DNA of 64,000 nt, taken from Streptosporangium saharense (GTDB lineage: Bacteria > Actinomycetota > Actinomycetes > Streptosporangiales > Streptosporangiaceae). Made by a program: the position numbers and the translations under genes. Within the stretch, counting starts at the first letter, position 1. Every line of letters starts with the position of its first letter. The notes below the pieces were generated by a model that ran no database searches, had not been told where the DNA came from, and worked only from the letters and a program-made list of their open reading frames with translations. The stretch is from positions 62,001 through 126,000 of the forward strand of contig NZ_JACHJP010000010.1 of the NCBI RefSeq assembly GCF_014203715.1. Direction: 5' to 3'. Of this stretch, positions 34,354 to 46,670 are shown piece by piece.

Positions 34354-35286
34354 ATGAGCGAACCGGTCGCGCCCGATCCGGTGACCGTCCCGCGCAGGCT
34401 CCGCCCCGGTGACCTGGTCGCGGTCGTCGCGCCCTGCGGGCCTCCCGACCCCGAGCGGCTCGCCCGTGGGGCGTCACTGCTGCGGGAGCTGGGGCTTGAG
34501 GTCGTCACCGGTGCCCACGTGCTCGACCGGGAGGGCTACCTCGCGGGGACGGACGCCGCGCGGGCGGCCGACCTGCAGGCGGCCTGGTGCGACCCCGACG
34601 TGGCCGCGGTGCTGTGCGCCAGGGGCGGCTACGGGGCGACGCGGGTGCTCGAACTGCTCGACTGGGAGGCCATGCGGGCCGCGGGGCCCAAGACGCTGGT
34701 CGGTTCGAGCGATGTCACCGCGCTGCACCGGGCCTTCTCCGTCATGCTGGGCGTCGCCTCGTGGTTCGGGCCGATGCCCGCCTGCTCGACCCTCAGCGAC
34801 CCCGAGGGGCCGGAGCCGCGTACCCTCGAACACCTGGCCGCCGCCCTGTTCGGCACGCCCGCGCCGGTCGTGGGGGACCGGGTGATCGTCCCGGGACGGG
34901 TCGAGGCGCCGGTGACCGGGGGGAACCTCAGCCTGCTCGCGGCGCTGTGCGGCACGCCGTACGAGCTGAGGGCGCGGGGGAGGATCGTGCTGCTTGAGGA
35001 CGTCACCGAGGCGCCCTACCGGATCGACCGGATGATCACCCAGCTGCTCATGTCGGGGGCGCTGGACGGGGCGGCCGGGTTCGCCCTCGGCTCCTGGGTC
35101 CGCTGCGGCGACCCCTACCCGGTGTTGCGGGAGCGGCTTGAACCGCTCAGGGTGCCGGTGATCGCCGGTCTTCCCGTGGGGCACGGCACACCACAGCTGA
35201 GTGTGCTCTTAGGGGCACTTGGTGCTATTGATGCAGAATCGTGCTCTCTGACCGGCTCAAACACCGCCCCCGTGAAGGCAGTCTAG
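34354..35286 (+). CDS. LD-carboxypeptidase, peptidase family S66
   Basis: The 310-residue protein belongs to family S66 (muramoyl-tetrapeptide LD-carboxypeptidase or MccF-like). The nucleophile Ser is in VGSSDVTALH, and the catalytic Glu and His are in LLEDVTEAPYRID and LPVGHG. It would trim the terminal D-alanine of peptidoglycan stem peptides or cleave related amide bonds. No signal peptide is seen. Codon 286 is TTA (35209-35211), and the last 25 codons contain unusually many A/T-ending codons. An inverted repeat (CTAGGT, GCGG, ACCTAG; 35283-35298) overlaps the stop. Confidence 0.9.
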   Translation: MSEPVAPDPVTVPRRLRPGDLVAVVAPCGPPDPERLARGASLLRELGLEVVTGAHVLDREGYLAGTDAARAADLQAAWCDPDVAAVLCARGGYGATRVLELLDWEAMRAAGPKTLVGSSDVTALHRAFSVMLGVASWFGPMPACSTLSDPEGPEPRTLEHLAAALFGTPAPVVGDRVIVPGRVEAPVTGGNLSLLAALCGTPYELRARGRIVLLEDVTEAPYRIDRMITQLLMSGALDGAAGFALGSWVRCGDPYPVLRERLEPLRVPVIAGLPVGHGTPQLSVLLGALGAIDAESCSLTGSNTAPVKAV

Positions 35287-35324
35287 GTGCGGACCTAGGA
35301 GGAGAGAGCAGAGGGGATGGGCGT

Positions 35325-36260
35325 GTGAGGCTGTTCCGGCGGCGTCGTGACCGGCAGACGAGGAGAGCCGCGCGGCCGGTCGAAGACGTCGATCTCGACT
35401 CCCTGCTCGCCCTGGTCGCCGACAGCCTCGGCTACGCCTGCGCCTTCTCCGCCGACGGCGGCACGCTGACCCTGACGTCGGACGAACAGCAGACCGGGCA
35501 CACGGTACGGCTGGCGGGGCTGCGGGCCGAGGCGCGCAGGCGCTCGCGCGAGGACTGGCCGGTGCTCGTCTCCGGGCACCTGTCCCACGTGCTGGCCACG
35601 GCGGGGGAGCCCTTCGACGCCTGCGACCTGGACCAGGTCCGCCCGCTGCTGCGCACCAGGCTCCGGCCCGCCGACGACGCCGAGACCGGTGTCGTTGGCC
35701 GCCACCTCAGCGCCGACCTGGTCGAGGTGCTCACCGTCGGGTACGGCGAGGCCGCCAGGCCGGTCCGCCCGGAGGAGGTCGGCTGCTGGCCGATCGCCGC
35801 CGCGCAGGCCCTTGAGGAGGCCGTGGGCAACGCGGCGCGCGACGGGCGGCTCTCGGTTGAGGCGATCGACCTCGGCGGCGCGACCGCGCTGCGGCTGAGC
35901 GGCACCACCGGAAGCGCCGCTGCCCACCTGCGCCGCCTCGGCGACTATCTCCGCGTGCCCGCCGACGGCGTGCTGGTCGCCCTGCCGAGCCACTCGGCGA
36001 TGGTCGTCCACCCGGTCGAGGGCATCGAGGTCGTCCGCGCGATCGAACGGCTGCGGCTGTTCGCCCAGCGCGAGTGCGACCCGGAGGCCGGCGGGCTCAG
36101 CCCCCAGGTCTACTGGTGGCACGACGGCAGGCTCACCCTCATCAGGGCCGACCTCGTCAGCCAGGACGGGCAGGTCCGGCTGGTCGTCGCCCCACCTCAG
36201 GCGTTCGCGCGGGTGCTCGCCGCCCTGGCGGCCCGTCCGGAGGGCGGTCCCGGAGGCTGA
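35325..36260 (+). CDS. Hypothetical protein upstream of the Hsp70-like gene
   Basis: The 311-residue soluble protein starts at GTG 35325 (GAGGGG 8 nt upstream) with a very basic stretch RLFRRRRDRQTRR, then an acidic/hydrophobic region (EDVDLDSLLALVADSLGY). I do not recognise a family with confidence; the C-terminal LPSHSAMVVHPV and QVYWWHDGRLTL segments look like a compact alpha/beta domain, faintly similar to DUF1444/YtpQ. It has no membrane helix or catalytic signature. Its position 190 bp before the Hsp70-like gene on the same strand may link it to that module, but this is inference. Confidence 0.7.
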   Translation: MRLFRRRRDRQTRRAARPVEDVDLDSLLALVADSLGYACAFSADGGTLTLTSDEQQTGHTVRLAGLRAEARRRSREDWPVLVSGHLSHVLATAGEPFDACDLDQVRPLLRTRLRPADDAETGVVGRHLSADLVEVLTVGYGEAARPVRPEEVGCWPIAAAQALEEAVGNAARDGRLSVEAIDLGGATALRLSGTTGSAAAHLRRLGDYLRVPADGVLVALPSHSAMVVHPVEGIEVVRAIERLRLFAQRECDPEAGGLSPQVYWWHDGRLTLIRADLVSQDGQVRLVVAPPQAFARVLAALAARPEGGPGG

Positions 36261-36450
36261 GAACGATCCCCGGAGGGACGCCACGGGATCACCGTGGGAG
36301 CTCGGGGAACCGTAAGATGGTGCCTTCCCGCCCCGCACTCACCCCGAGGAGCCTCCCGCGCACCCCGGCCGTCCCTCCGGCGTGCCCGCCACGATCGGCC
36401 GCGGCCCGTGAATGCGGGATGACCGGGTCCGCATCTACGAGGAGTGGCAA

Positions 36451-38922
36451 ATGGCGCAGTGGTGCCTCGGTGTCGATCTCGGGACGAGTTTCTCCGCCGG
36501 GGTCATAGCCGCCGAAGGGCGCTTCGACGTCCTGGAGGTCGAGGGGGAGCGGCGCATCCCCTCGGCCGTCATGCTCGACGAGCGCGGCACGCTGGTCGCG
36601 GGCCGCGTCGCCCAGCGGGGCATCGCGCTCAACCCGGAACGCGTCGAGCGCAACCCCAAGCGCTACGTCGGCCGGGGCCGGATGCTGCTCGGCGGGGTGC
36701 CGGTCGCCGTCGCCGACGCCATGGCGGCGCTGCTCGAACTGTTCGTCAGCGAGGGCAAACGGCGCTTCGACGGCGCCCCGCCCGACTGCATCGCGCTGAC
36801 CCACCCCGTCGCCTGGGGAGAGGACCGCAAGGCCGTACTGCTGGAGGCCGCCAGGCAGGTCGTACGCGGGGTGCGGATCGTGCTCGTGGACGAGCCCGTC
36901 GCCTCGGCCCGCTACTTCGCCGGGGCCGGGCGGGCGGGCGGCTCGCACCTGGCCGTCTACGACCTCGGCGGCGGCACGTTCGACGCCGCCGTCCTCACCG
37001 TGGACGGCAGCGACTTCAAGGTCGTCGGCGAGCCCGGCGGCAGCGACGAGATCGGCGGGGAGGTGTTCGACGAGCAGGTCTTCGCCTTCCTCGGCACGCA
37101 GATCGAGCGCCTGGACGCCGAGTGGTGGCAGCAGGTGACCACCAACCCGGAGCGCCGCTACGTGAGCTACGCCGCCGACCTGCTCAAGATGGCCAGGGAG
37201 GCCAAGGAGGCGCTGTCGAAGTTCGACACCTCCTCCCACTACGTGGTCGGCATCAACGAGGACGTGCACATCGCCAGGGGCGACCTGGAGGACCTCATCG
37301 GGACCGAGATCGTCAAGACGGTCGACATCCTGGAGGAGACGATCCGCGGCGCCGGGATCACCCGGGACGAGCTGGCGGCGGTGTTCATGACCGGTGGCGC
37401 GAGCCGGATGCCGCTGGTCCAGGAGGCCGTGCGCGACCGGCTCGGCGACCGGGTGCGCACCTACGACGACCCGAAGATCGTCGTCGCGTACGGCGCCGCC
37501 CAGCTCGCCTGGAAGCTCAAGGTCGAGCAGCGCGACCCCGAGCAGTCCCAGAGCCTGCCGGTGAGCCGTGTCGAGCCGACCGGCGGGCAGCGGACCTTCA
37601 CCGGCCCCGCGGGCGGGCACACCGGGGGCCACCCGGTCCCCGAGGGCGGCCCCAGGGCGAGGCCACAGGTCGCGCAGCCGGGCGGGCCGGTCGTCCCCGG
37701 CGTCGCCAAGGTGCTGGACGGCGTGCTCGACGCCCGGGTGGAGGGGGGAAGGGTCTTCGTCCACCAGGCCTTCGACAGCGGCCACCTGCTGCGCAGGCTC
37801 GACGGCGTCGAGGGGAGATACGACCGGGAACTGCGCTTCGGCAGGCTGGTCGAATGGGCCGTCTCCCGCGAGGGCGTCGCCGCGGTCGAGCAGGTCGGCC
37901 CGGCGCAGACGCTGGTGCGCGTCCTCACCCCCGACCTGGCCATCCGCGGCACCCACCCGCTCCAGGTGTGGGGCAACCCCACGGTGCTCGCGCACGGCCG
38001 TACCTCGTGGGTCTTCTTCCAGCCGCGCCAGCCGACCCCGGTGGACAGCTCGGTCGGCCTGCCCTGGGGCGAGACCGGCCAGCTCTCGGTTGTGGAGTTC
38101 GACCTGGGCGGGGGCTTCATGTTCCAGGCGCCGCAGCCACGCGACCTGGGACCGTACACCCAGTGGTTCCTCAACGAGGACAACCGGCTGCGGCGGCTCG
38201 TGGACCAGGAGGGGCCGAGCGGCAACGACCCCGCGCCCTCCGTCGGGGCGCCCGGCTGCACGGTGGTGCTCGGGCAGTTCAGCAGCAACAAGCCGATGTT
38301 CCAGAACAGGCACCACGACTTCAGGCCCTGGCAGGTGCTGTGCCTGATCGACCCGGGCGGCGTCGTGCGCCCGACGGTCAGGGAGCCGGGGCGTAGCTGG
38401 CTGCACCAGGTCGTGCTGCACAACGGCAGGTGGTTCACCTCAAGCTCGGCAGGACTTGAGGCCGACGCCGCCGACGGCAGGACCAAGCTCGTCATGCCCA
38501 GGCCGAGGGCGGGCGCCCTGCGCTGGGTCCCCGCGGGCGGCCAGATCTACGCGGTCGGCACCGACCAGGTGAGTCCCGCGCGGGGCTGGTCGGTCGGGAT
38601 CTTCAACCAGCGCTCGCACACGCTGGAGTTCCTGATGGGCAAGCAGTCGGCGACCCTGGCCGGGCACCTGACCTCGCGTCACCGCTGGGAGCGGCCCAGG
38701 CTGGTGGCCGACGGCGACTCGATCTGGCTGACCATGCTGGACGCGGGCCGCAGCAGGCTCGTGCACGTCACCCCGGCGGGGGCGCGGGAGGTGCACCGCA
38801 CGCCGGGGCTGTTCGAGCCGGTCGTGCGGGTTCCCAGTGGCCTGCTGTGCCTGCACCGGCCCGGGGACACCACCGGGGCGACCCGCGACCAGCCCGCGGC
38901 CCTGGTGCACCTGCCGTTGTGA
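36451..38922 (+). CDS. Hsp70-like ATPase with a novel C-terminal domain instead of the substrate-binding domain
   Basis: Residues 1-356 of this 823-residue protein form an Hsp70 actin-like nucleotide-binding domain: phosphate-1 GVDLGTSFS (7-15), DEPVAS (147-152), phosphate-2 YDLGGGTFD (170-178) and adenosine motif VFMTGGASRM (312-321). There is no DnaK linker or beta-sandwich substrate domain. A Pro/Gly-rich linker (about 361-420) leads to roughly 400 residues with repeated W/F and G-rich strands (QVWGNPTVL, TSWVFFQP, DSIWLTMLD, GRSRLVHV) that may be a beta-propeller; I do not recognise the family. ATG 36451 has GAGGAG 6 nt upstream. It converges on two dynamin-like genes. Confidence 0.88.
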   Translation: MAQWCLGVDLGTSFSAGVIAAEGRFDVLEVEGERRIPSAVMLDERGTLVAGRVAQRGIALNPERVERNPKRYVGRGRMLLGGVPVAVADAMAALLELFVSEGKRRFDGAPPDCIALTHPVAWGEDRKAVLLEAARQVVRGVRIVLVDEPVASARYFAGAGRAGGSHLAVYDLGGGTFDAAVLTVDGSDFKVVGEPGGSDEIGGEVFDEQVFAFLGTQIERLDAEWWQQVTTNPERRYVSYAADLLKMAREAKEALSKFDTSSHYVVGINEDVHIARGDLEDLIGTEIVKTVDILEETIRGAGITRDELAAVFMTGGASRMPLVQEAVRDRLGDRVRTYDDPKIVVAYGAAQLAWKLKVEQRDPEQSQSLPVSRVEPTGGQRTFTGPAGGHTGGHPVPEGGPRARPQVAQPGGPVVPGVAKVLDGVLDARVEGGRVFVHQAFDSGHLLRRLDGVEGRYDRELRFGRLVEWAVSREGVAAVEQVGPAQTLVRVLTPDLAIRGTHPLQVWGNPTVLAHGRTSWVFFQPRQPTPVDSSVGLPWGETGQLSVVEFDLGGGFMFQAPQPRDLGPYTQWFLNEDNRLRRLVDQEGPSGNDPAPSVGAPGCTVVLGQFSSNKPMFQNRHHDFRPWQVLCLIDPGGVVRPTVREPGRSWLHQVVLHNGRWFTSSSAGLEADAADGRTKLVMPRPRAGALRWVPAGGQIYAVGTDQVSPARGWSVGIFNQRSHTLEFLMGKQSATLAGHLTSRHRWERPRLVADGDSIWLTMLDAGRSRLVHVTPAGAREVHRTPGLFEPVVRVPSGLLCLHRPGDTTGATRDQPAALVHLPL

Positions 38923-38928
38923 ACGCGT

Positions 38929-38960
38929 GTGCCCCCGGCGGACGAATCCGCCGGGGGCAC
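38929..38960. terminator. Bidirectional hairpin terminator between Hsp70-like and dynamin-like genes
   Basis: A perfect 13-bp stem (38929-38941 with 38948-38960) closes an ACGAAT loop in the 52-bp gap between the two convergent stop codons, so it can end both transcripts. Confidence 0.88.
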
Positions 38961-38974
38961 AGCCGTACAGGGCC

Positions 38975-40906
38975 TCAGGAGACCGGCGCGGGAGCCGCAG
39001 CGGGGGCCGCGCCGAGGGCGGCGACCGCGGTGGCCAGTTCCTCGCGCAGCGCGTGGCCGCGCCTGGTGAGGGTGTTGATCGCGGAGATGCGGTCCTGACC
39101 GGACTGCCGTGACTTCTGGCGGTCGGCGGCGGAGCGGGCCGAGGCGGACTTCAGCTCCGCCCGCCTGCTCTCCAGCTCCTTGCGCCGCCGCGTCAGGCTG
39201 TCGTCGGCCGCCTGCTCGACGCCGACCCGCCAGGTGGCGACCATCCGCTCCAGGTCGAGGGTCATCTCCCTGGCCACGACGGAGAACTGGTCTCGCAGCG
39301 CCCCCCTGATCGCGGCCTGGTTGCGCTGCACCTTCTCCAGCGAGCGCCGCCCGAGGAAGATGGAGGCCCCGATGGCCGGGGCCACCAGAAGGAAGCCGAT
39401 GGGGCCGAGCATGGCCGCGGCCAGGCCACCGAACGAGGCGGCCATCGAGATCGAGGGCAGCACGTCCCGCACCATGTCCACGTCGACTGGCGCGTCCGCG
39501 GCCTGGTCCCCCTTGACCTGGACCTGCGACAGGTTGGGCATCCCGCTCCTGTCCGCCGACAGCTCGACAGGGCCGAGGCCCAGGTCGCGGGCGAAGGCGT
39601 CCAGGGTGGTCCTGGCCAGCTTCTCCACGTCGAAGACGATCTGCGACCAGGCGGCCTCAAGGGAGCGCTGGACGCTCTCCGGCAGCTCCGCCATGTATCT
39701 GTCGATCTGCTCCTGCTTCTTCAGCGTGGCGATCGCGTTCTCGTACGGCTGGCGGATCTCGGCCACCCTGGCGGCCACGATGCCGCCGACCTCGCGACCG
39801 AGGAAGGTGTTGGCCACCGCCCCCGCCCTGCGCCTGGCCACCAGCTCCCCGAGGGCGGCCAGCTCCGCGTCCAGCTCGGCGAGCCTGGCGGTGACGTCCC
39901 CGGCGTCGTCGGAGCCCGCGGCGACGTCGTCCTGCGCCCCGGTCGCCAGCGCGTTCAGCACGGAGAGCGCGGCGGAGACCACGGTCGCGCCGCGTGCCGA
40001 CTCCCTGCCCTCGGCGAACCCGCGCAGGTGCCGCTCCAGCACGTCCATGCCGCTGCGGGCCCGTAGCGCGTCGGCCCGCTCGGCGCGGCCCTCCCTGCGC
40101 TTGGCCGCCGCGGCCTCGGCGAGCTTCGAGCTGACCGGGATCCAGGGGGCCCGCAGCAGCGGGCTCAGCGTCGCCGCCCTGCCGGGGTCGGCGGCGATCG
40201 CCTCGGTGACGAAGGTCCGCAGCCTGGCCTGGTTCTCCTCCTGAAGGCTCCGCCAGTTGGTCGAGTCCTCCACCTTGGTCAGCACGAACACGATCGCCTG
40301 GACCCGTTCCGCGGCCTCGGCGAGGAACTCGAGTTCGTGCCTGAGCACCGGCTGGTCCTGCGCGCTGAGCGTGAACAGCAGCGCGTCGGCCCGCTGGAGC
40401 ATGGCCACGGTCACCTGCCTGTGCCCGACGGTCAGACTGTCGACGCCGGGGGTGTCGAGCAGGCGCAGGCCGTCGAGCAGCGGGTTGTCCAGGGTGATGT
40501 CCACGCTGACGACGTCGCGCCGCTTGCCCGCGTCGCCGCGCATCGAGGCGTAGTCGGGGATCGACTCGACGGTGATCGGCGTCTCGACAAGCCCGGTGCC
40601 GGTGTTGCGGTGCACGACGGCGGTGAGGCGGGGCCCGCGCCGCAGGGACAGGAAGCAGTTGGTCGCGACGTCGGCATCCACGGGCAGCAGGTCGGGGTGG
40701 CCGACGAGCGTGTTGAGCAGGCGGCTCTTGCCCCGCTTCTGCGCGCCCGCGACCACGATGTCGGTGCACTCGTCCTTCCACCTGGCCGCGCTCGCGGCCA
40801 GCACCTCGGCCAGGTCCTGCCTGCCGCAGCGGCCCGCAAGGCCGTGGACCTCGTTGGCGTAGCGCAACAGCCGGGCCACCGGGCCCGCCTGCTCGGGGGT
40901 GGTCAT
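38975..40906 (-). CDS. Dynamin-family GTPase (IniA-like), second gene of pair
   Basis: The 643-residue protein has a dynamin-type GTPase domain: P-loop GAQKRGKS (54-61), switch-I Thr T82, DTPG (151-154) and TKVED (210-214). A strongly hydrophobic stretch at residues 484-518 (SISMAASFGGLAAAML, GPIGFLLVAPAIGASIF) fits a membrane-inserting paddle, and a basic coiled-coil tail follows (RRRKELESRRAELKS). Bacterial dynamin-like proteins such as mycobacterial IniA remodel or protect the membrane. ATG 40906 has AGGAG upstream. It lies 38 bp downstream of a second dynamin-like gene, as in IniA/IniC pairs that may hetero-oligomerise. Confidence 0.9.
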   Translation of the reverse strand: MTTPEQAGPVARLLRYANEVHGLAGRCGRQDLAEVLAASAARWKDECTDIVVAGAQKRGKSRLLNTLVGHPDLLPVDADVATNCFLSLRRGPRLTAVVHRNTGTGLVETPITVESIPDYASMRGDAGKRRDVVSVDITLDNPLLDGLRLLDTPGVDSLTVGHRQVTVAMLQRADALLFTLSAQDQPVLRHELEFLAEAAERVQAIVFVLTKVEDSTNWRSLQEENQARLRTFVTEAIAADPGRAATLSPLLRAPWIPVSSKLAEAAAAKRREGRAERADALRARSGMDVLERHLRGFAEGRESARGATVVSAALSVLNALATGAQDDVAAGSDDAGDVTARLAELDAELAALGELVARRRAGAVANTFLGREVGGIVAARVAEIRQPYENAIATLKKQEQIDRYMAELPESVQRSLEAAWSQIVFDVEKLARTTLDAFARDLGLGPVELSADRSGMPNLSQVQVKGDQAADAPVDVDMVRDVLPSISMAASFGGLAAAMLGPIGFLLVAPAIGASIFLGRRSLEKVQRNQAAIRGALRDQFSVVAREMTLDLERMVATWRVGVEQAADDSLTRRRKELESRRAELKSASARSAADRQKSRQSGQDRISAINTLTRRGHALREELATAVAALGAAPAAAPAPVS

Positions 40907-40944
40907 CTGAGGTGTTCTCCTGTCGGGATCGTGCCGGTGGGGGG

Positions 40945-42780
40945 TCACGGGCCGTCCGGCCGGTCGCAGCGCGCCCAGATGGCCTCGTAGGCCTCGCAGA
41001 GGGTCTCGGCCGCCCTGCGCTGCCTGATGGGGAGCGGTCTGTGGGTCAGCACGCGGAACCTGGCGGCCAGCGCGGCGGCGTAGCCGGCCAGTTCCGTGCG
41101 GGGGGCCGAGGGAGGAGCGCCGAGCTGGACCGCCAGCTCGGTCCCGCTCAGCAGCAGTTCGAGGGCGCGCCGGTCGTCCACGGGGACCATCGGGGACAGG
41201 CGCAGCGCCTCGGCCGCCGCCCGGTCGACGGAGACCGGGGGAAGCGGCCCCCCGCCGGTGGCCGTGGCCGGTTTGCGGTCCTCGGCGAGTGCCGCGCCGA
41301 CGACGTCCTCAAGGACGGTCAGCACGTCCCTGGCCCGGTGCCCTCCGGTACGGCCCTCGCTCATCATGGCCAGGGTGCGCCAGCGCATCGAGGCGGCGGT
41401 GGCCGCGGTCGCGATCTCCGGCTTCGGTGCCCCCGCGGCCAGCCCGAGCTGTTCCGCGGGGTCGTCGTGGCGGGCCATGCGCAGCAGTTCGGCCGTCATC
41501 TCCTCGTTCAGGACGAGCGTGCCCCTGCCGAGCGCCTCGGCCGCGGCGAAGATCCGCAGGCCGCCGAGCGCGGTCGCGATGGGCTTGTTCTCGTCGAGCT
41601 GGGCCGCCAGCGCGTCCAGGGTGGAACGGTCCGAGCCGAGCGCGGGGGTGCGGGCTATGGCGCGCAGCCTGGTCAGGGCGTCGAGCGCCTTCAGGTGGTC
41701 GGCGCGGCGGGCGAAGTGGGCGATGCCCGCGGCGACCGAGCCGGTCGCGGCCCGTCCGGCGGAGGCGTATCCCGACCGCTCAAGCAGGTGCGCCGCCAGC
41801 CCCTTGGGGTCGCTGACGACGCCCTCGCGCAGGGCGCGCACCGCGGTCATGATGCCGTAGCGGTGCAGCCGCTCGACCAGGCGGTGCCGTACCTCGGAGG
41901 AGACGGGCAGGTCGGGGGCGGTGCGGAAGTCTTCCAGGTCGAGGAGATAGTCCTCCAGGTCGTCCTCGTCCATCCCGGCCAGCGTGGACAGCGCCGCGAA
42001 CTCCTCGGCGCCCGGTGGGCACGCCCGCGCGGTCTCGGCCAGCAGGCCGATCACCGGGACCACGTCGAAGACGGAGGTCCGCAGGTCCTGGTAGCCCTTG
42101 GCCGCGAGGCGCCGCGCGGTCGGCCAGGGGTCGTCCTCGTCACCGCGCCGGTCAACCTGGCCGAGCACGGCCAGGGTGTTGACGCAGCTCATCCCGCAGG
42201 CGCCGGTGAGGCCGCGGAACTCGGCGAGGGTGGTGTCGTCGAACTTCTGGACGTAGCGCAGCACGTAGATCATCGCCTGGGCGCGGTCGTCCTCGTCCCC
42301 CGAGCCGAACAGCATGCTCCTGGCGGCCTGCTCGTTGGCGGCCGTCACCGTGTTCATGCCGGGGGTGTCGACGATGGTGACCGTGCGCAGGGAGGGCTGG
42401 TCCAGCGTGACGCGCAGCCGCCGGATCCTGGAGACCTCGACCCCCAGGTCCGAGGGCAGCCGGTGGCCGGGCAGCAGCCGTGAGTGGGCGACCTCGCCGT
42501 CCCGCAGCTCGATCGTGATGTGGCCGTCGTCGGTGCCGTACTCGTACTGGGTGACGACGAAGGTGCACTCGCCCGCGTCGACCGGGGCAACGGGCAGTCC
42601 GAGCAGGGCGTTGACCAGGGTCGACTTGCCGCTGCTGACCGCGCCCGCGACCGCGACCCGCAGCGGGGCGTCAAGGCTCGCGCGCACCTGGGCGACCCGC
42701 TCGCGCAGCTCGGCCCCGGCGAGCCTGGCCGAGGTGGAGTCGCAGAGGCGGCGCAGCAGGTCCGCGGGGCCCGCCGTCAC
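40945..42780 (-). CDS. Dynamin-family GTPase (IniC-like), first gene of pair
   Basis: The 611-residue protein has P-loop GAVSSGKST (46-54) and DTPG (138-141); the G4 base-specificity motif is GQVD (207-210) rather than N/TKxD, so guanine selectivity could be relaxed. Unlike its partner it has no long hydrophobic paddle, only helical regions, so it may depend on the second GTPase for membrane binding, as proposed for IniC-like proteins. GTG 42780 is the first start. It is transcribed before the partner gene and divergently from the sigma-factor gene. Confidence 0.88.
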   Translation of the reverse strand: MTAGPADLLRRLCDSTSARLAGAELRERVAQVRASLDAPLRVAVAGAVSSGKSTLVNALLGLPVAPVDAGECTFVVTQYEYGTDDGHITIELRDGEVAHSRLLPGHRLPSDLGVEVSRIRRLRVTLDQPSLRTVTIVDTPGMNTVTAANEQAARSMLFGSGDEDDRAQAMIYVLRYVQKFDDTTLAEFRGLTGACGMSCVNTLAVLGQVDRRGDEDDPWPTARRLAAKGYQDLRTSVFDVVPVIGLLAETARACPPGAEEFAALSTLAGMDEDDLEDYLLDLEDFRTAPDLPVSSEVRHRLVERLHRYGIMTAVRALREGVVSDPKGLAAHLLERSGYASAGRAATGSVAAGIAHFARRADHLKALDALTRLRAIARTPALGSDRSTLDALAAQLDENKPIATALGGLRIFAAAEALGRGTLVLNEEMTAELLRMARHDDPAEQLGLAAGAPKPEIATAATAASMRWRTLAMMSEGRTGGHRARDVLTVLEDVVGAALAEDRKPATATGGGPLPPVSVDRAAAEALRLSPMVPVDDRRALELLLSGTELAVQLGAPPSAPRTELAGYAAALAARFRVLTHRPLPIRQRRAAETLCEAYEAIWARCDRPDGP

Positions 42781-42902
42781 GTGGCACCGCCGGGTGCGGG
42801 CCGTACATGGAGGGCGGGGGACGAGAACGTCCGCGGGAACATGGGCAGATTCTCCTCCTGTGTCGGGTTCCTGGTCGTCCCGGAGGGGAGTCGACGCAGG
42901 TC

Positions 42903-42919
42903 AGTCAGGTTGTCTGACT
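42903..42919. promoter_or_regulatory. Inverted repeat between the dynamin pair and the sigma-factor gene
   Basis: AGTCAG, GTTGT, CTGACT forms a perfect 6-bp inverted repeat in the 263-bp divergent region. It could be a regulator site for either side. No convincing -10/-35 pair was found nearby. Confidence 0.4.
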
Positions 42920-43043
42920 CGTCACGGGACGATCCGAGGGGGGGATTATCACGGTCCAATATCATGGCGGACCACCGCATACCGGGCGATCGTGGGACGT
43001 GATGTCATTGGCTGATTTTCCGCTCCCGGACGATGGGTGACCG

Positions 43044-43604
43044 ATGACGAGCGTGTCGTTGGGCGGGGCCGTGAAGGACGGAACCGAGGACGAGAGCCTG
43101 CTCGTCGCCGCGGCCCGCCGGGGTGACGAGAGCGCCTTCGCGGAGCTGTGGTCGATGGCGCGGAGCCCGGCCTTCGGCGTCTGCTACCACCTGACCGGCA
43201 ACCGCGCCGACGCTCTCGACGCGCTCCAGGACACGCAGTTCGCGGCCTGGCGCAACCTGTCGGGCTTCCAGGGCAGGTCGCCCTTCAGGGCCTGGGTGCT
43301 GGCCATCGCGCGCAACGCCTCCCACTCGGTGATCAGGCGCCGTCCTCCCCTCGGCGCTCACATGGCCGAGGTCGCCGAGGAACTGCTGGTCGCCGACCCC
43401 TTCGAGGACTCGGTCGCCCGGCTGGCCGACCTGCGCAGGGCGCTCGCCGGTCTGCCCGCCTCCCACCGGGAGGCACTGCTGCTGTGGGCGGGTGGTCTGA
43501 CCTACGAGCAGGTCGCGCTCTCGCTCGGGGTGCCGCTGAACACGGTCAGGACCTGGATTCACCGTGCCAGAGGACGGCTGCGGACCGGCCTGGCCGACGG
43601 CTGA
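43044..43604 (+). CDS. ECF-type RNA polymerase sigma factor
   Basis: The 186-residue protein has sigma region 2 (AFAELWSMARSPAFGVCYHLTGNRADALDALQDT, residues about 31-65, with the FRAWVLAIARNASHSVIRRR segment following) and region 4 (LPASHREALLLWAGGLTYEQVALSLGVPLNTVRTWIHRAR, about 132-172). No C-terminal extension is present. An obvious anti-sigma gene is missing next to it; the membrane-anchored GrpE-like protein encoded convergently 2 bp away is not a zinc anti-sigma factor. It may control the Hsp70-like/dynamin module, which is inference. Confidence 0.9.
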   Translation: MTSVSLGGAVKDGTEDESLLVAAARRGDESAFAELWSMARSPAFGVCYHLTGNRADALDALQDTQFAAWRNLSGFQGRSPFRAWVLAIARNASHSVIRRRPPLGAHMAEVAEELLVADPFEDSVARLADLRRALAGLPASHREALLLWAGGLTYEQVALSLGVPLNTVRTWIHRARGRLRTGLADG

Positions 43605-43606
43605 TC

Positions 43607-44443
43607 TCACCCCGCACTCTCGCTCCTGGGCGCCTCGTGGCGGTAGACGGCGACCTGCGGTACGCGGATCACCCGGCCGCCGTCGGCGTAGCCCTTCTTG
43701 ACGGTCTCGGCGACCGTGTCGTGCAGTTCCGGCCGGTCGGTCGGCTCGGTGCCGAACGCCTCGTGCAGGCGCGGGTCGAACCGCTGCCCGTCCGGGACGA
43801 TCTCCCGCACCCCGGCCCTGTTCAGGCCGTCCCCGAGGACGTCGGCCAGCCGGGGATGGCGTTCGGCGACCTGGTCGCGGCAGCCGATGCAGGCCTCGAC
43901 CAGGGCCTGCCTGCCCGGATGCCCCCCGGAGAACAGCCGCTCGACCTGCTGGGTGAGCGCCTGGCTGATCCCGCTGCCCGCGACCTCGGTGAGCGCCTCG
44001 GCCAGCGGATCTCTTTCCGGTACGGCGGGCGGCGCCGGCGAGGGGGAGGGCTGCCACGGGTACGGCGGCGCCCCGGGAGCCCCCTCAGGAGCCACGGGGG
44101 CGCCCTGCCAGGAAGCCGCGGGGGAGGCCGTCCGCCGACCCCGTGACCACAGATAGAAGCCTCCCGCGCCCGCCACGGCGAGCGCGGCGGCGAGTGCGAC
44201 CAGCAGGGGGACGGGGAGCGGGAACGGTCCGCCCGGCGTCCCCGCCTCGCCGGGCGTCACCCCCTGCCCCCTGCGCAGGGGCCGTACGGCCTCTCCCTGG
44301 GAGACGTCCGGCCCCTCGGGCTCCGATGAGGTGGCGACGGTCCGCGTCCGCCCGTCCGCCGCCCCTCCCACGAGGCCGCAGGCGCCGAGCGCCGCGCAGG
44401 CCAGCAGGAACAACAGGGGCAGGAGCGCGCGTCGGTCTCTCAT
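43607..44443 (-). CDS. Membrane-anchored GrpE-like protein
   Basis: The 278-residue protein starts with a signal sequence containing a lipobox-like LGAC (C22), then a Pro/Gly-rich segment, one membrane helix (about 75-98), a disordered Pro/Ala region and a C-terminal domain (about 190-268). That domain resembles the beta-domain of GrpE, the Hsp70 nucleotide exchange factor: GVREIVPDGQRFDPRLHEAF, then VAETVKKGYADGGRVIRVPQVAVY. The topology would place it in the cytoplasm. The long GrpE coiled coil is absent. It is a plausible exchange factor for the Hsp70-like ATPase at 36451-38922. Confidence 0.8.
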   Translation of the reverse strand: MRDRRALLPLLFLLACAALGACGLVGGAADGRTRTVATSSEPEGPDVSQGEAVRPLRRGQGVTPGEAGTPGGPFPLPVPLLVALAAALAVAGAGGFYLWSRGRRTASPAASWQGAPVAPEGAPGAPPYPWQPSPSPAPPAVPERDPLAEALTEVAGSGISQALTQQVERLFSGGHPGRQALVEACIGCRDQVAERHPRLADVLGDGLNRAGVREIVPDGQRFDPRLHEAFGTEPTDRPELHDTVAETVKKGYADGGRVIRVPQVAVYRHEAPRSESAG

Positions 44444-44527
44444 CGGGTGTCTTTCTCGTCTGTCGCCCGTGTGGATCGCGACCGGGTTCCCCCCTGGTGG
44501 TCACACGGGCTCACGCTGCTCGTGCGG

Positions 44528-44776
44528 TCAGGCGGTGGGGAAGGGGCCCGAGGTCTGGGTGTAGTCGGCGACGCCGTCGCCGTCGTAGTCGATCCGCGCC
44601 TCGTCGATGTAGCCGTCACCGTCGTTGTCGAGGTAGACGACGTCGGTCACCCCGTCGCCGTCGGTGTCGTAGCGCTCCTCGTTGGCGTAGCCGTCGCCGT
44701 CGGTGTCGATCAGCTGGGCGTCGGCGCTGCCGTCACCGTCGTAGTCGACCAGGTCGGAGGTGGCGAAGTCGCTCAT
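44528..44776 (-). CDS. Small acidic protein of five DxDGDG repeats
   Basis: The 82-residue protein consists almost entirely of five 13-14-residue repeats (DYDGDGSADAQLI, DTDGDGYANEERY, DTDGDGVTDVVYL, DNDGDGYIDEARI, DYDGDGVADYTQT). Each has the Asp spacing of calcium-binding EF-hand or thrombospondin type 3 loops. There is no signal peptide or membrane helix, so it appears cytoplasmic unless exported by an unusual route. ATG 44776 has AAAGGAA upstream. It precedes the GrpE-like gene on the same strand with an 84-bp gap, so they may share a transcript. Confidence 0.82.
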   Translation of the reverse strand: MSDFATSDLVDYDGDGSADAQLIDTDGDGYANEERYDTDGDGVTDVVYLDNDGDGYIDEARIDYDGDGVADYTQTSGPFPTA

Positions 44777-44909
44777 GTTCGTTCCTTTCGGGTGGTGTTC
44801 AACAGGTGAGAGTGACCTTGGCCGTGTTTAGTTGCACCCGAGGGGGAAAATTTTTTCACGACTTTTCCGACCTTCCGGATCTGCCGCATTCTGGCTCGTC
44901 AGGACCGGT

Positions 44910-46670
44910 TCAGCTCAACGCGCGGGCCACATGGATCAGCGGGACGTGACTGAAGGCCTGCGGGAAGTTGCCGACCATCCGGCCGTAGCGGGGGTCGTAC
45001 TCCTCGGCGAGCAGCCCGACGTCGTTGCGTAGCGCCAGCAGGCGCTCGAACAGCTCGACGGCCTCCTCCTTGCGCCCGATCATCGCCAGCGCCTCGGCCA
45101 GCCAGAAGCTGCACGCCAGGAACGCGCCCTCACCCCCGGGCAGGCCGTCCACGTCGTTGTCCTCCTGCACCGGATAACGCAGCACGAAGCCGTCCACCAT
45201 CAGCTCGCGCTGGATCGCCTCGATGGTGCCGACCACCCTGGGGTCCTCGGGGGGCAGGAAGCCGACCATGGGGATCATCAGCAGGGAGGCGTCCAGCTCC
45301 GCCGAGCCGTACGACTGGGTGAAGGTGCCGCGCGCGGTGTCGAAGGCCTTGTGGCAGATCTCGGCGTGGATCCGGTCGCGCAGTTCCCGCCAGCGCTCGA
45401 CGGGGCCCGTCCTGCCGAACCGCTCGACCTGCCTGACGGCCCGGTCGAGGGCGACCCAGCACATCACCTTGGAGTGGGTGAAGTGCCTGCGCGGCCCCCT
45501 GACCTCCCACAGGCCCTCGTCGGGCTCGTCCCAGTGGGCCTCCACGTAGCCGATCAGCTCACGCTGGATGGTCCACGCCCTGTCGTCGGGCTCCATGCCC
45601 GAGACGCGCGACAGGTACAGGGAGTTCATCACCTCGCCGTAGACGTCGAGCTGGAGCTGGGTGACCGCGTCGTTGCCGATCCTGACCGGGCGGGAGGCCT
45701 CGTAGCCGGGCAGCCAGGACAGTTCGAGCTCGGTCAGCCTGCGCTCGCCGGTCACGCTGTACATGATCTGCAGGTCCTGGGCGCGGCCCGCGATGGCGCG
45801 CAGCAGCCACGCCCGCCAGGAGCGGGCCTCGTCCAGGTAACCGGCGCCGATGAGCGCTTCGAGCGTCATGGTCGCGTCACGCAGCCAGCAGTAGCGGTAG
45901 TCCCAGTTGCGGACCCCGCCGAGGTCCTCGGGCAGCGAGGTGGTCGGGGCGGCCACGATGCCGCCGGTCGGGGCGTAGGTGAGCGCCTTGAGCGTGATGA
46001 GCGAGCGGACCACGGCGTCGCGCCACGGGCCCTGGTAGGTGCACTGGCCGAGCCACTCCTCCCAGAGCTGCTCGGTCTGGGCGAGCTGCTCGAAGGGGTC
46101 GATCTCGACGGGCCTGGCCTCGTGGGAGGGGTGCCAGGTGAAGACGAAGGCCAGACGGTCGCCCTCGTTGACGCGGAACCTCGCCTTGTGGGCGTAGTCG
46201 CCGCCGTGCAGCGGGACGGGGGAGTGCAGCCACACCGAGTCGGGGCCGCCGACGGCCTGCAGCAGCCCGTCGCTGCGGCGCACCCAGGGCACGATGCGGC
46301 CGTAGTCGAAGCGGATGCGGATCTCGGTGGCCATCTCGACGGTGCCGGAGACGCCCTCGACGATCCTGACCAGGTCGGGGTTGACGTGCCTGGTCGGCAT
46401 GAAGTCCGTGACGCGGACCGTGCCCGTCGGGGTGTCCCACTCGCTCTCCAGCACCAGGGACTCACCCCGGTAGCTCCGCCGGGTGGCGTCGGCCCGCCCC
46501 GTGTCGGCGGGGCCGAGCCACCACTGCCCGTGGTGCTTGTCGCCGAGCAGCGCCGCGAAGCACGCCGGTGAGTCGAACTTGGGCAGGCAGAGCCAGTCGA
46601 TGGAGCCGTTGCGGCCGACCAGGGCCGCCGACTGCATGTCGCCTATGAGGGCGTAGTCCTCGATCCGCAT
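44910..46670 (-). CDS. Glycoside hydrolase family 15 protein (trehalase/glucoamylase-like)
   Basis: The 586-residue cytoplasmic protein has an N-terminal beta-sandwich (about 1-220) and an (alpha/alpha)6 barrel. Catalytic acid and base candidates are E389 in DEGLWEVRG and E556/E557 in LLAEEYDP. The WDYRYCWLRDA motif is typical of this GH15 subgroup, which includes mycobacterial trehalase. No signal peptide is visible, favouring an intracellular substrate such as trehalose. ATG 46670 is used. Confidence 0.92.
   Translation of the reverse strand: MRIEDYALIGDMQSAALVGRNGSIDWLCLPKFDSPACFAALLGDKHHGQWWLGPADTGRADATRRSYRGESLVLESEWDTPTGTVRVTDFMPTRHVNPDLVRIVEGVSGTVEMATEIRIRFDYGRIVPWVRRSDGLLQAVGGPDSVWLHSPVPLHGGDYAHKARFRVNEGDRLAFVFTWHPSHEARPVEIDPFEQLAQTEQLWEEWLGQCTYQGPWRDAVVRSLITLKALTYAPTGGIVAAPTTSLPEDLGGVRNWDYRYCWLRDATMTLEALIGAGYLDEARSWRAWLLRAIAGRAQDLQIMYSVTGERRLTELELSWLPGYEASRPVRIGNDAVTQLQLDVYGEVMNSLYLSRVSGMEPDDRAWTIQRELIGYVEAHWDEPDEGLWEVRGPRRHFTHSKVMCWVALDRAVRQVERFGRTGPVERWRELRDRIHAEICHKAFDTARGTFTQSYGSAELDASLLMIPMVGFLPPEDPRVVGTIEAIQRELMVDGFVLRYPVQEDNDVDGLPGGEGAFLACSFWLAEALAMIGRKEEAVELFERLLALRNDVGLLAEEYDPRYGRMVGNFPQAFSHVPLIHVARALS

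Follow-up and report, generated by a model that had tools for sequence, protein, structure and literature searches.

An Hsp70-like ATPase, an IniA/IniC-like dynamin pair and a membrane-anchored mini-GrpE form a gene block in Streptosporangium saharense and suggest ATP-driven control of bacterial dynamins

The 64 kb stretch of DNA analysed here (the window) carries, at positions 36451–44776, six genes lying side by side, all of them in the place and orientation reported in a preliminary description, which had singled them out as unusual. The interval 36000–45000 contains no Rfam match. The features are as follows, in window coordinates:

36451..38922, + strand: Hsp70-like ATPase without a substrate-binding domain (PF00012, E = 2.2e-32, ATPase region only; P-loop, Lys, Glu, GGGTFD and GGxSR motifs intact)
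36451..37554, + strand: its ATPase (nucleotide-binding) domain (residues 13–381 of the 836-aa frame covered by the family profile)
37687..38919, + strand: its C-terminal domain, 411 aa, fold unassigned (82–89% identity within the genus)
38975..40948, − strand: dynamin-like GTPase 1, IniA-like (Dynamin_N, E = 1.1e-16; IniA 6j72 the best PDB sequence match, E = 6e-18)
40945..42780, − strand: dynamin-like GTPase 2, IniC-like (Dynamin_N, E = 1.6e-13; common profile with the IniC-position genes of iniB loci)
43044..43604, + strand: ECF sigma factor, an optional part (TIGR02937, 70 bits against a cut-off of 42.9)
43607..44443, − strand: membrane-anchored mini-GrpE (PF01025, E = 6.5e-13, profile positions 100–163 of 165 only; lipobox and second hydrophobic segment)
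43628..43912, − strand: its GrpE C-terminal domain (family profile; FDPxxHEA and GYxxxxRxxRxxxV motifs)
44528..44776, − strand: DxDGDG repeat protein, five 13-residue units (repeat pattern)
44807..44836, − strand: promoter-like element TGCAACTAA...ACTCTCA upstream of the repeat gene (pattern made from an alignment)

The start given earlier for the Hsp70-like gene is preceded by a GAGGAG-type site that is kept in related loci. Its product matches the Pfam HSP70 model at 112.5 bits, with the best stretch ending at residue 367. As in DnaK, the ATPase domain has intact catalytic motifs; an Hsp70 substrate-binding domain was not found by Pfam, and the profile of the DnaK C-terminus sets canonical DnaK apart from these Hsp70-like proteins. 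The last 411 residues of the window's copy match nothing in Pfam or among PDB sequences. This C-terminal domain was found in one of 296 genomes of the phylum, and 18 further loci of the same family carry it. The C-termini of related Hsp70-like proteins contain WD40, PQQ and other propellers. For the window's own domain, a beta-propeller was considered but is not supported: there was no Pfam, PDB-sequence or profile match and no self-repeat, and Pfam gave a Kelch match of only 0.17 in 2 of 10 members.

The two GTPase genes stand in tandem with a 4-base overlap. GTPase 1 is closer to M. smegmatis IniA (6e-18) than to Nostoc BDLP (1.1e-9) among its PDB matches. GTPase 2, which has GQVD in place of the usual NKxD, shares a profile and a tree with the IniC-position genes, and the single PDB matches of that profile slightly favour Nostoc BDLP. 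Further dynamin matches of the pair are Campylobacter 5owv, Nostoc 2j68 and the Leo models. Judged by sequence, the two are an adjacent dynamin-family pair with a closer kinship to IniA/IniC than to other bacterial dynamins. The coverage of the PF01025 model in the mini-GrpE similarly points to the Hsp70-contacting C-terminal domain of GrpE; model positions before 100 are unmatched, so that the long N-terminal dimerisation helix is not seen, and the N-terminal part consists instead of a signal, a linker and a hydrophobic segment. A predicted hydrophobic segment is absent from the mini-GrpE of loci L045, L060, L083–L085, L149, L150/L151 and L152. The preliminary description had spoken of an Hsp70-like ATPase lacking the substrate-binding domain and carrying a novel C-terminal domain, of dynamins comparable to IniA/IniC, and of a membrane-anchored GrpE-like protein, and all three portrayals agree with these matches.

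The sigma factor had likewise been counted as part of the module. We rejected it as a core part, as its gene is present in seven of the ten block-bearing genomes of the genus and in none of the six block-less ones, and the three block-bearing genomes that lack it have no match elsewhere at E ≤ 1e-30. The promoter-like element, which matches once in the window, is kept in all ten block-bearing genomes, including those without the sigma gene, and in 6 of the 9 loci L141–L149. The repeat protein has no match above the Pfam cut-off to any calcium-loop family (EF-hand_5, with E = 0.012, stays under the curated one). Both the sigma factor and the repeat gene vary outside the window's family; a DGDG pattern match in L081 proved to be an artefact of a low-complexity frame.

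Are the six genes more than neighbours? Ten of the 16 genomes of the window's genus carry the block, and the other six have none of its six genes and show the flanking genes next to each other, so that, the sigma gene excepted, the block is all-or-none within the genus. Genes for a GH15/trehalase-like protein, an S66 peptidase and a 339-aa protein were rejected as parts of the block, as they remain where it is absent. The co-occurrence check proposed earlier was run, and the six families do recur together outside the window. They were found together in 7 of the 10 block-bearing genus genomes, in 8 of 16 stretches from the window's family and in one distant Actinomycetota MAG (L082), and the Hsp70-like gene, both GTPases and the mini-GrpE recur together in L058, L087 and L093. 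The block or related loci are also carried on plasmids, and their presence in the genus is patchy. The six genes are a real unit; their grouping is not due to chance, since it is all-or-none in the genus apart from the sigma gene and since the Hsp70-like/dynamin pairing recurs across the phylum.

The association of Hsp70-like and dynamin genes is conserved across Actinomycetota. In a sample of 296 actinobacterial genomes, a non-DnaK Hsp70-like gene lies near the IniC-like gene in 12 of 13 loci; the same holds for 31 of 42 further named loci and for 15 of 16 stretches of the window's family, compared with none of the 28 control loci (other dynamin loci or weak hits). Conversely, 9 of 10 non-DnaK Hsp70-like matches adjoin an IniC-like gene. 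One Hsp70-like gene (G232, 5.83 Mb) is without a dynamin in its vicinity. No such Hsp70-like gene was found nearby in the remaining 11 named loci, several of whose stretches are short or cut, or in G306, and L081 and L083–L085 have the mini-GrpE and the dynamins with no Hsp70-like gene within the fetched stretch. Canonical dnaK-grpE genes do lie near L061, L063, L068, L114 and L118; they were rejected as the cause of the pairing, being separated by the DnaK C-terminal profile and the tree. Three entries of the first ATPase tree (own_L001, own_L003 and own_L006) were disregarded, as they are longest frames that probably are not the gene's frame.

Other actinobacterial IniA/IniC loci, including those with iniB, usually have an Hsp70-like gene, and the neighbourhoods fall into two kinds. 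IniB and the mini-GrpE never occur in the same locus among 84 loci, the ten block-bearing loci of the genus contain no IniB N-terminal domain, and the mini-GrpE rows lie on one side of a tree branch (97/92). Among the rows listed, each readable GrpE-type ATPase retains Lys, Glu and GGGTxD, compared with degenerate motifs in 17 of the 28 readable IniB-type rows; ATP turnover is therefore not required everywhere. A transmembrane segment follows the ATPase domain in 4 of 24 GrpE-type versus 27 of 29 IniB-type proteins. The GrpE-type Hsp70-like protein is usually soluble, whereas in IniB-type relatives the membrane anchor usually lies within the Hsp70-like protein itself.

Could the Hsp70-like protein serve as the ATP-driven switch of the dynamins? 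With a probability of roughly one half, we propose that a system widespread in actinobacteria joins a dynamin pair of the IniA/IniC kind to an Hsp70-like ATPase of its own, which probably controls the pair, and that the block represents the GrpE-type branch of this system. Dynamin assembly at the membrane would then be governed by an Hsp70/GrpE ATP switch dedicated to it. The Hsp70-like protein would act as the nucleotide switch, and the C-terminal domain that replaces the peptide-binding domain might bind a fixed partner, either the dynamins or the repeat protein. The mini-GrpE, anchored in the membrane with its GrpE domain presumably in the cytoplasm, would recruit the Hsp70-like protein and reset it by nucleotide exchange. 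By analogy with Hsc70 on clathrin, the ATP cycle may load dynamin oligomers at the membrane or strip them from it, and the pair would then remodel, vesiculate or seal the membrane, most likely when the envelope is stressed. The DxDGDG protein, small and acidic, may act as a regulator or client, possibly a metal-binding one, in roughly the role of IniB, and the sigma factor, where present, would tune expression. The proposal is supported by the all-or-none distribution in the genus, the Hsp70-like/dynamin association, the separation of mini-GrpE and IniB loci, the intact GrpE-type ATPase motifs, the different placing of the transmembrane segment and the propellers of relatives. Against it count the loci in which no Hsp70-like gene was found near the dynamins, the Hsp70-like gene of G232, the mini-GrpE copies with no predicted hydrophobic segment and the degenerate ATPase sites of many IniB-type relatives. 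More tentatively, and with somewhat more doubt than belief, we consider a class of machines spread through the phylum, each coupling a dedicated Hsp70-family ATPase to a dynamin pair at the cell membrane, which the ATPase drives or releases. The class would exist in two forms: in the first, IniB is present and the Hsp70-like protein holds the anchor; in the second, the mini-GrpE holds the anchor and the Hsp70-like protein is soluble and often bears a propeller. Mycobacterial iniBAC would be a reduced form in which the ATPase is either absent or a decayed pseudo-enzyme.

The block might instead serve in conflict or in phage defence. Invasion would then be sensed by an NTP-dependent threshold switch made up of the Hsp70-like ATPase and the GTPases, and this switch would set off dynamin-driven damage or sealing of the membrane, as in GTPase-centred conflict systems with HSP70 and GrpE. 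The PADLOC Leo models match both GTPases (2.8e-21 and 2.2e-13), the Nonomuraea locus is flanked by caspase-domain and LuxR-type ATPase genes, patchiness and plasmid carriage fit as well, and the available text of PMC7159879 reports paired GTPases with HSP70, GrpE and an HSP70 without a peptide-binding domain. However, the Hsp70-like, GrpE-like and 339-aa proteins match no defence model, the structure of the block is constant in the genus rather than hypervariable, and both GTPases are IniA/IniC-related dynamins whose Pfam matches do not include the GTPase family named in that text. We regard this explanation as unlikely. We give slightly less credit to a folding helper, a dedicated Hsp70-like/GrpE chaperone that folds unstable dynamins or keeps them soluble. 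The association with IniC-like genes would suit it, as would the instability of IniC, which according to the accessible part of PMC6715688 was too great for purification and study; the missing substrate-binding domain (Pfam), the degenerate IniB-type ATPases and the C-terminal domains, which differ between loci (propellers, transmembrane tails or unassigned), do not.

An actin-like filament, formed by MreB- or ParM-like polymerisation of the ATPase domain and serving to position the dynamins, is quite improbable: the Pfam MreB_Mbl match (27.8 bits) is just above its 27.0 cut-off, HSP70 is far ahead, and the presence of a GrpE domain in the locus speaks for a cycle of the Hsp70 type. A gene order due to chance or inheritance, with no functional link, would fit the variable sigma factor and repeat gene outside the window's family and the canonical dnaK-grpE operon that gene order places near iniA/iniC in some Mycobacteriales. 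It is contradicted by the absence of the whole block from six congeners, by recurrence in distant lineages and on plasmids and by the control loci, and we give it almost no credence.

Since related Hsp70-like/dynamin pairings recur across actinobacteria, these results suggest an ATP-driven system for the control of bacterial dynamins, one that has so far gone almost unnoticed. How bacterial dynamins load and release is unclear, and a conserved Hsp70-like partner lets the effect of its ATP state on assembly be tested. IniA and IniC are induced by cell-wall drugs in mycobacteria and, as stated in the available part of a review (PMC8017856), are needed for mycobacterial vesicle release. If the proposal is true, an Hsp70 domain has been turned from a chaperone into a membrane-remodelling switch, and a GrpE has been reduced to the domain that contacts Hsp70 and anchored in the membrane.

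Several known systems resemble parts of this arrangement. The clathrin coat is taken apart by the ATP cycle of the Hsp70 protein Hsc70, with auxilin as the recruiting partner. The likeness, an Hsp70 ATP cycle that dismantles a membrane coat (PMC4436892, in its accessible part), would be an analogy of mechanism only, as the block has no clathrin and no identified J-domain protein. Campylobacter DLP1/2, LeoABC and cyanobacterial BDLP resemble the block in their paired dynamin genes and sequence matches. They differ in that none of the 28 other bacterial dynamin loci or weak hits has an Hsp70-like gene nearby, a set that does not include the Campylobacter, Leo and Nostoc loci themselves. In the available text of PMC6104087, a partner gene of the Nostoc dynamin encodes a DnaJ-like domain at its C-terminal end, to which DnaK may bind, and the cyanobacterial case may thus serve as a precedent, by analogy, for a chaperone link. 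The DO-GTPase/GAP1 conflict systems, as described in the accessible part of PMC7159879, share with the block a pair of (there paralogous) GTPases, Hsp70, a GrpE and an Hsp70 without a peptide-binding domain. On the other hand, their GTPase family is called previously unrecognised there, the paper nowhere uses the word dynamin, and the block's proteins have no match in Pfam of the GAP1 type or of that GTPase family. The preliminary description knew of no described system with this combination. Neither the phylum-wide pairing nor the mini-GrpE branch was found in the open-access literature searched; one case of the Hsp70 link has been published, a dnaK-like gene that lies by iniR in M. smegmatis (PMC5760070). 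With mycobacterial iniBAC/iniR the block shares a dynamin-like GTPase pair of the IniA/IniC kind. It differs in having no detected iniB or iniR-like gene and in carrying the mini-GrpE, the repeat protein, a soluble Hsp70-like protein whose ATPase motifs are intact, and the sigma factor in seven of ten genomes.

All six genes named in the preliminary description were found side by side, occupying the interval between a 339-aa gene and a GH15/trehalase-like gene:

35241–36260, + strand: 339-aa gene, no family; left boundary of the block interval
36451–38922, + strand: Hsp70-like protein
38975–40948, − strand: GTPase 1, dynamin family; overlaps GTPase 2
40945–42780, − strand: GTPase 2, dynamin family; overlaps GTPase 1
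43044–43604, + strand: ECF sigma factor
43607–44443, − strand: GrpE-like protein
44528–44776, − strand: DxDGDG repeat protein
44910–46670, − strand: GH15/trehalase-like gene; right boundary of the block interval

The Hsp70-like gene converges on the two GTPase genes across a gap of 52 bases.

Do these genes behave as a unit? Among 16 genomes of the genus, the window included, an IniC-like gene was present in 10, and the C-terminal domain of the Hsp70-like protein in the identical 10. The order Hsp70-like, both GTPases, GrpE-like, repeat was kept in all nine other carriers, three of which lack the sigma gene. In the six block-less genomes, the 339-aa gene adjoins the GH15 gene (43–172 bp between aligned ends); none of the six block genes was detected in this stretch, and genome-wide searches at the limits used detected neither the IniC-like gene nor the Hsp70-like C-terminal domain nor this sigma factor. 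Because the order is kept in the carriers and the genes were undetected in the six others, the block is all-or-none apart from the sigma gene, being gained or lost as one unit. The flanking 339-aa product, with zero Pfam/NCBIfam matches, was found in 16/16 genomes. According to the title of PMC5760070, IniR responds to trehalose; a functional link of the adjoining GH15/trehalase-like gene to the block is unlikely, since this gene persists where the block is absent. A promoter-like element, occurring once in the 64 kb window, precedes the repeat gene in 10/10 carriers of the genus and in 6/9 related loci (L141–L149), counts that are descriptive rather than an independent test, as the pattern was derived from the same alignment. 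The three sigma-less genomes keep the element as well, so its presence alone is not enough to link promoter and sigma factor.

How widely are IniC-like and Hsp70-like genes paired? Profile A1, built from six IniC-like proteins, was searched in 296 evenly drawn actinobacterial genomes and had matches at E ≤ 1e-10 in 41. Loci of at least 200 bits were taken (13 loci in 12 genomes: G000, G025, G102, G178, G306, G141, G065, G114 (twice), G263, G060, G125 and G232), and all reading frames in the surroundings of IniC-like loci were scored with family profiles, canonical DnaK being distinguished from Hsp70-like proteins by its C-terminal domain. A non-canonical Hsp70-like gene lay near the IniC-like gene in 12 of the 13 loci (11 of 12 without the window); near that of G306 (L063), on a stretch ending at the contig end, only canonical dnaK was found. 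An Hsp70-like gene also lay near a partial match in G193 (108 bits), which was excluded from this count. A scan of public genomes gave at least 54 loci; among the matches listed, 31 of the 42 loci at E ≤ 3e-20 (L081–L122) had an Hsp70-like gene, and 4 of the 11 negatives were on brief stretches (L092, 7.7 kb; L097, 11.8 kb; L113, 14.5 kb; L083, 16.7 kb). The window's family had it in 15 of 16 stretches (L141–L156; G387 counted twice, weak match L157 excluded), and it was present in 61/74 IniC-like loci with nine congeners and L151 dropped. As a control, 28 other-dynamin or weak dynamin loci (L050–L057, L073–L080, L123–L134; 20 passing the dynamin threshold, 12 on stretches under 17 kb) had no Hsp70-like gene nearby.

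In the opposite direction, a profile of Hsp70-like proteins searched at E ≤ 1e-65, a limit that misses the divergent mycobacterial type, gave 11 matches in 10 of the 296 genomes. One, in G208, was canonical DnaK, and 9 of the remaining 10 adjoin an IniC-like match; the count is 7 of 8 without G000 and G025, which belonged to the profile. No dynamin was detected within the fetched 20 kb around the Hsp70-like gene of G232 at 5.83 Mb. Canonical dnaK and grpE also lie near L061, L063, L068, L114 and L118, whose DnaK proteins share a clade with own_L002, the genome's own dnaK. L088, on a contig assigned to an Acidobacteria MAG, is an iniB-iniA-iniC-type locus whose Hsp70-like gene is close to those of actinobacteria, which would be a gene transfer or a misbinning.

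The 84 IniC-like loci carried the IniB N-terminal domain in 26 cases, a mini-GrpE (C-terminal GrpE domain only) in 31 and both in none (Fisher p = 2e-5 on 74 dereplicated loci, uncorrected for ancestry). One branch of the IniC tree (29 rows, support 97/92) separates the 24 mini-GrpE rows, all on the same side, from the 26 IniB rows. The GGGTxD motif is intact in 24/24 readable rows among the GrpE-type Hsp70-like proteins listed (one a duplicate; one further row is a gap); among 28 readable IniB-type rows, counted by eye, 11 are intact and 17 degenerate, the latter, where named, mostly from Mycobacteriaceae, Nocardiaceae and Gordoniaceae, plus Modestobacter and Aeromicrobium. Simple hydropathy, with congeners and one duplicate removed, predicted a transmembrane segment behind the ATPase domain in 4/24 GrpE-type versus 27/29 IniB-type proteins; that of L082 may be a false call within a propeller. 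The membrane anchor thus tends to belong to the Hsp70-like protein or else to its GrpE partner, though with exceptions: several mini-GrpE frames (L045, L060, L083–L085, L149, L150/L151, L152) have no predicted hydrophobic segment. Degenerate-motif Hsp70-like genes lie near iniB-iniA-iniC in L061, L101, L103, L106, L116 and other Mycobacteriaceae-type loci; their products are apparently pseudo-ATPases with a transmembrane segment.

In the window's Hsp70-like protein, both phosphate motifs and the adenosine motif of Hsp70 are retained, as are the positions of the catalytic Lys and Glu. The HSP70 model match ends at residue 367; beyond it come a linker rich in Pro and Gly and then a 411-residue domain, 82–89% identical across the genus, whose window copy had no Pfam match and whose profile had no match among PDB sequences. 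When 55 of 65 listed C-terminal parts of relatives outside the genus were scanned, the best 25 of 69 families included Beta-prop_THOC3 (6/55), PD40 (6/55), WD40 (5/55) and PQQ_2 (4/55). Single scans placed WD40 at the C-terminus of one L151 protein, L154 and L071, PQQ in L082, L093 and L152, PD40 in L100, a Vgb/YNCE propeller in L048 and CD225 (interferon-induced transmembrane) in L058; another L151 protein, L110 and L149 gave no match. The window's own domain could be a propeller too; direct profile comparison for propeller likeness gave no matches, with scores at the level of shuffled controls.

GTPase 1 best matches M. smegmatis IniA (6j72, E = 6e-18) and has a hydrophobic stretch at about residues 490–525, as read from the sequence; GTPase 2 has GQVD at the usual NKxD position. 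The GrpE-like protein comprises, in order, a lipobox-type signal, a second hydrophobic segment, RGRR and the C-terminal GrpE domain. By the positive-inside rule of membrane topology, this domain would be cytoplasmic. The lipobox was found close to the N-terminus in 15 of 19 GrpE-like proteins (window, L039–L047, L141–L149) and missed in L041, L045, L148 and L149; the divergent proteins of the window's family in L150/L151 and L152 are without it. The suggested exchange-factor activity is putative, as is calcium binding by the repeat protein, which consists of five 13-residue units with no visible signal peptide.

DxDGDG proteins with such 13-residue units also occur in a Rhodococcus pyridinivorans plasmid, Gordonia plasmid pGKT3, Millisia, MAG L082 and the window's family. 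The Rhodococcus plasmid (L060) has the order repeat protein, 105-aa GrpE, 402-aa Hsp70-like, sigma factor, with no dynamin detected in the fetched stretch; pGKT3 (L059) has an Hsp70-like gene with a dynamin pair. Other plasmids, among the matches listed, have an Hsp70 family protein beside a GTPase. In L112, L115 and L119, longer TSP3-like repeats lie directly upstream of the dynamin pair, the position of IniB elsewhere. One dense cluster (L150 and L151; G387, contig C1, ~3.178–3.206 Mb) holds three IniC-like genes, further dynamins, a mini-GrpE and six Hsp70-like genes, the sixth clipped at the stretch end and at least one with WD40 repeats. In Nonomuraea gerenzanensis (L058, 2829–16148), a compact IniC-GrpE-IniA-Hsp70 run, the last being the CD225 protein, has as its neighbours two caspase-domain proteins and one LuxR-type ATPase.

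Could the Hsp70-like protein work as a switch? Several features point to a nucleotide switch that has a fixed partner and is reset at the membrane: its ATPase motifs are intact, a GrpE contact domain is retained in the locus, the peptide-binding domain is lost and a dynamin pair lies close by. The Hsp70-like protein would form a complex with this partner, mini-GrpE exchange activity would reset it at the membrane, and the switch would control dynamin assembly, presumably in a stress role. Hsc70 with auxilin strips clathrin (see the abstract of PMC4436892), and this is the nearest working analogy. The PADLOC Leo matches of both GTPases, the caspase-domain neighbours of the Nonomuraea locus and the patchy presence of the block count for a conflict system; we retain that reading because of them, and consider it less probable than a membrane-reset switch.

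One prior printed remark concerns the Hsp70 link, in a single species: passages of PMC5760070 describe iniR and iniBAC and remark on a dnaK-like gene by iniR in M. smegmatis. In those of PMC6715688, IniA is a membrane-fission dynamin and IniC too unstable for study, and the terms Hsp70 and chaperone were not found; an excerpt of PMC8017856, citing a preprint, states that vesicle release requires IniA and IniC. We found no account of the phylum-wide Hsp70-like/dynamin pairing or of the mini-GrpE branch in the open-access library searched. The portion of PMC6104087 consulted emphasises pairwise action of bacterial dynamins and mentions a Nostoc dynamin bearing a DnaJ-like domain, a possible DnaK binder. 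The system of PMC7159879, from the text available, resembles the block in its paired GTPases with HSP70, GrpE and an HSP70 without a peptide-binding domain, but its GTPases are of another family and the word dynamin is absent there. The block is a real, conserved module, and a fresh variant of the IniA/IniC-type dynamin systems rather than an entirely new kind.
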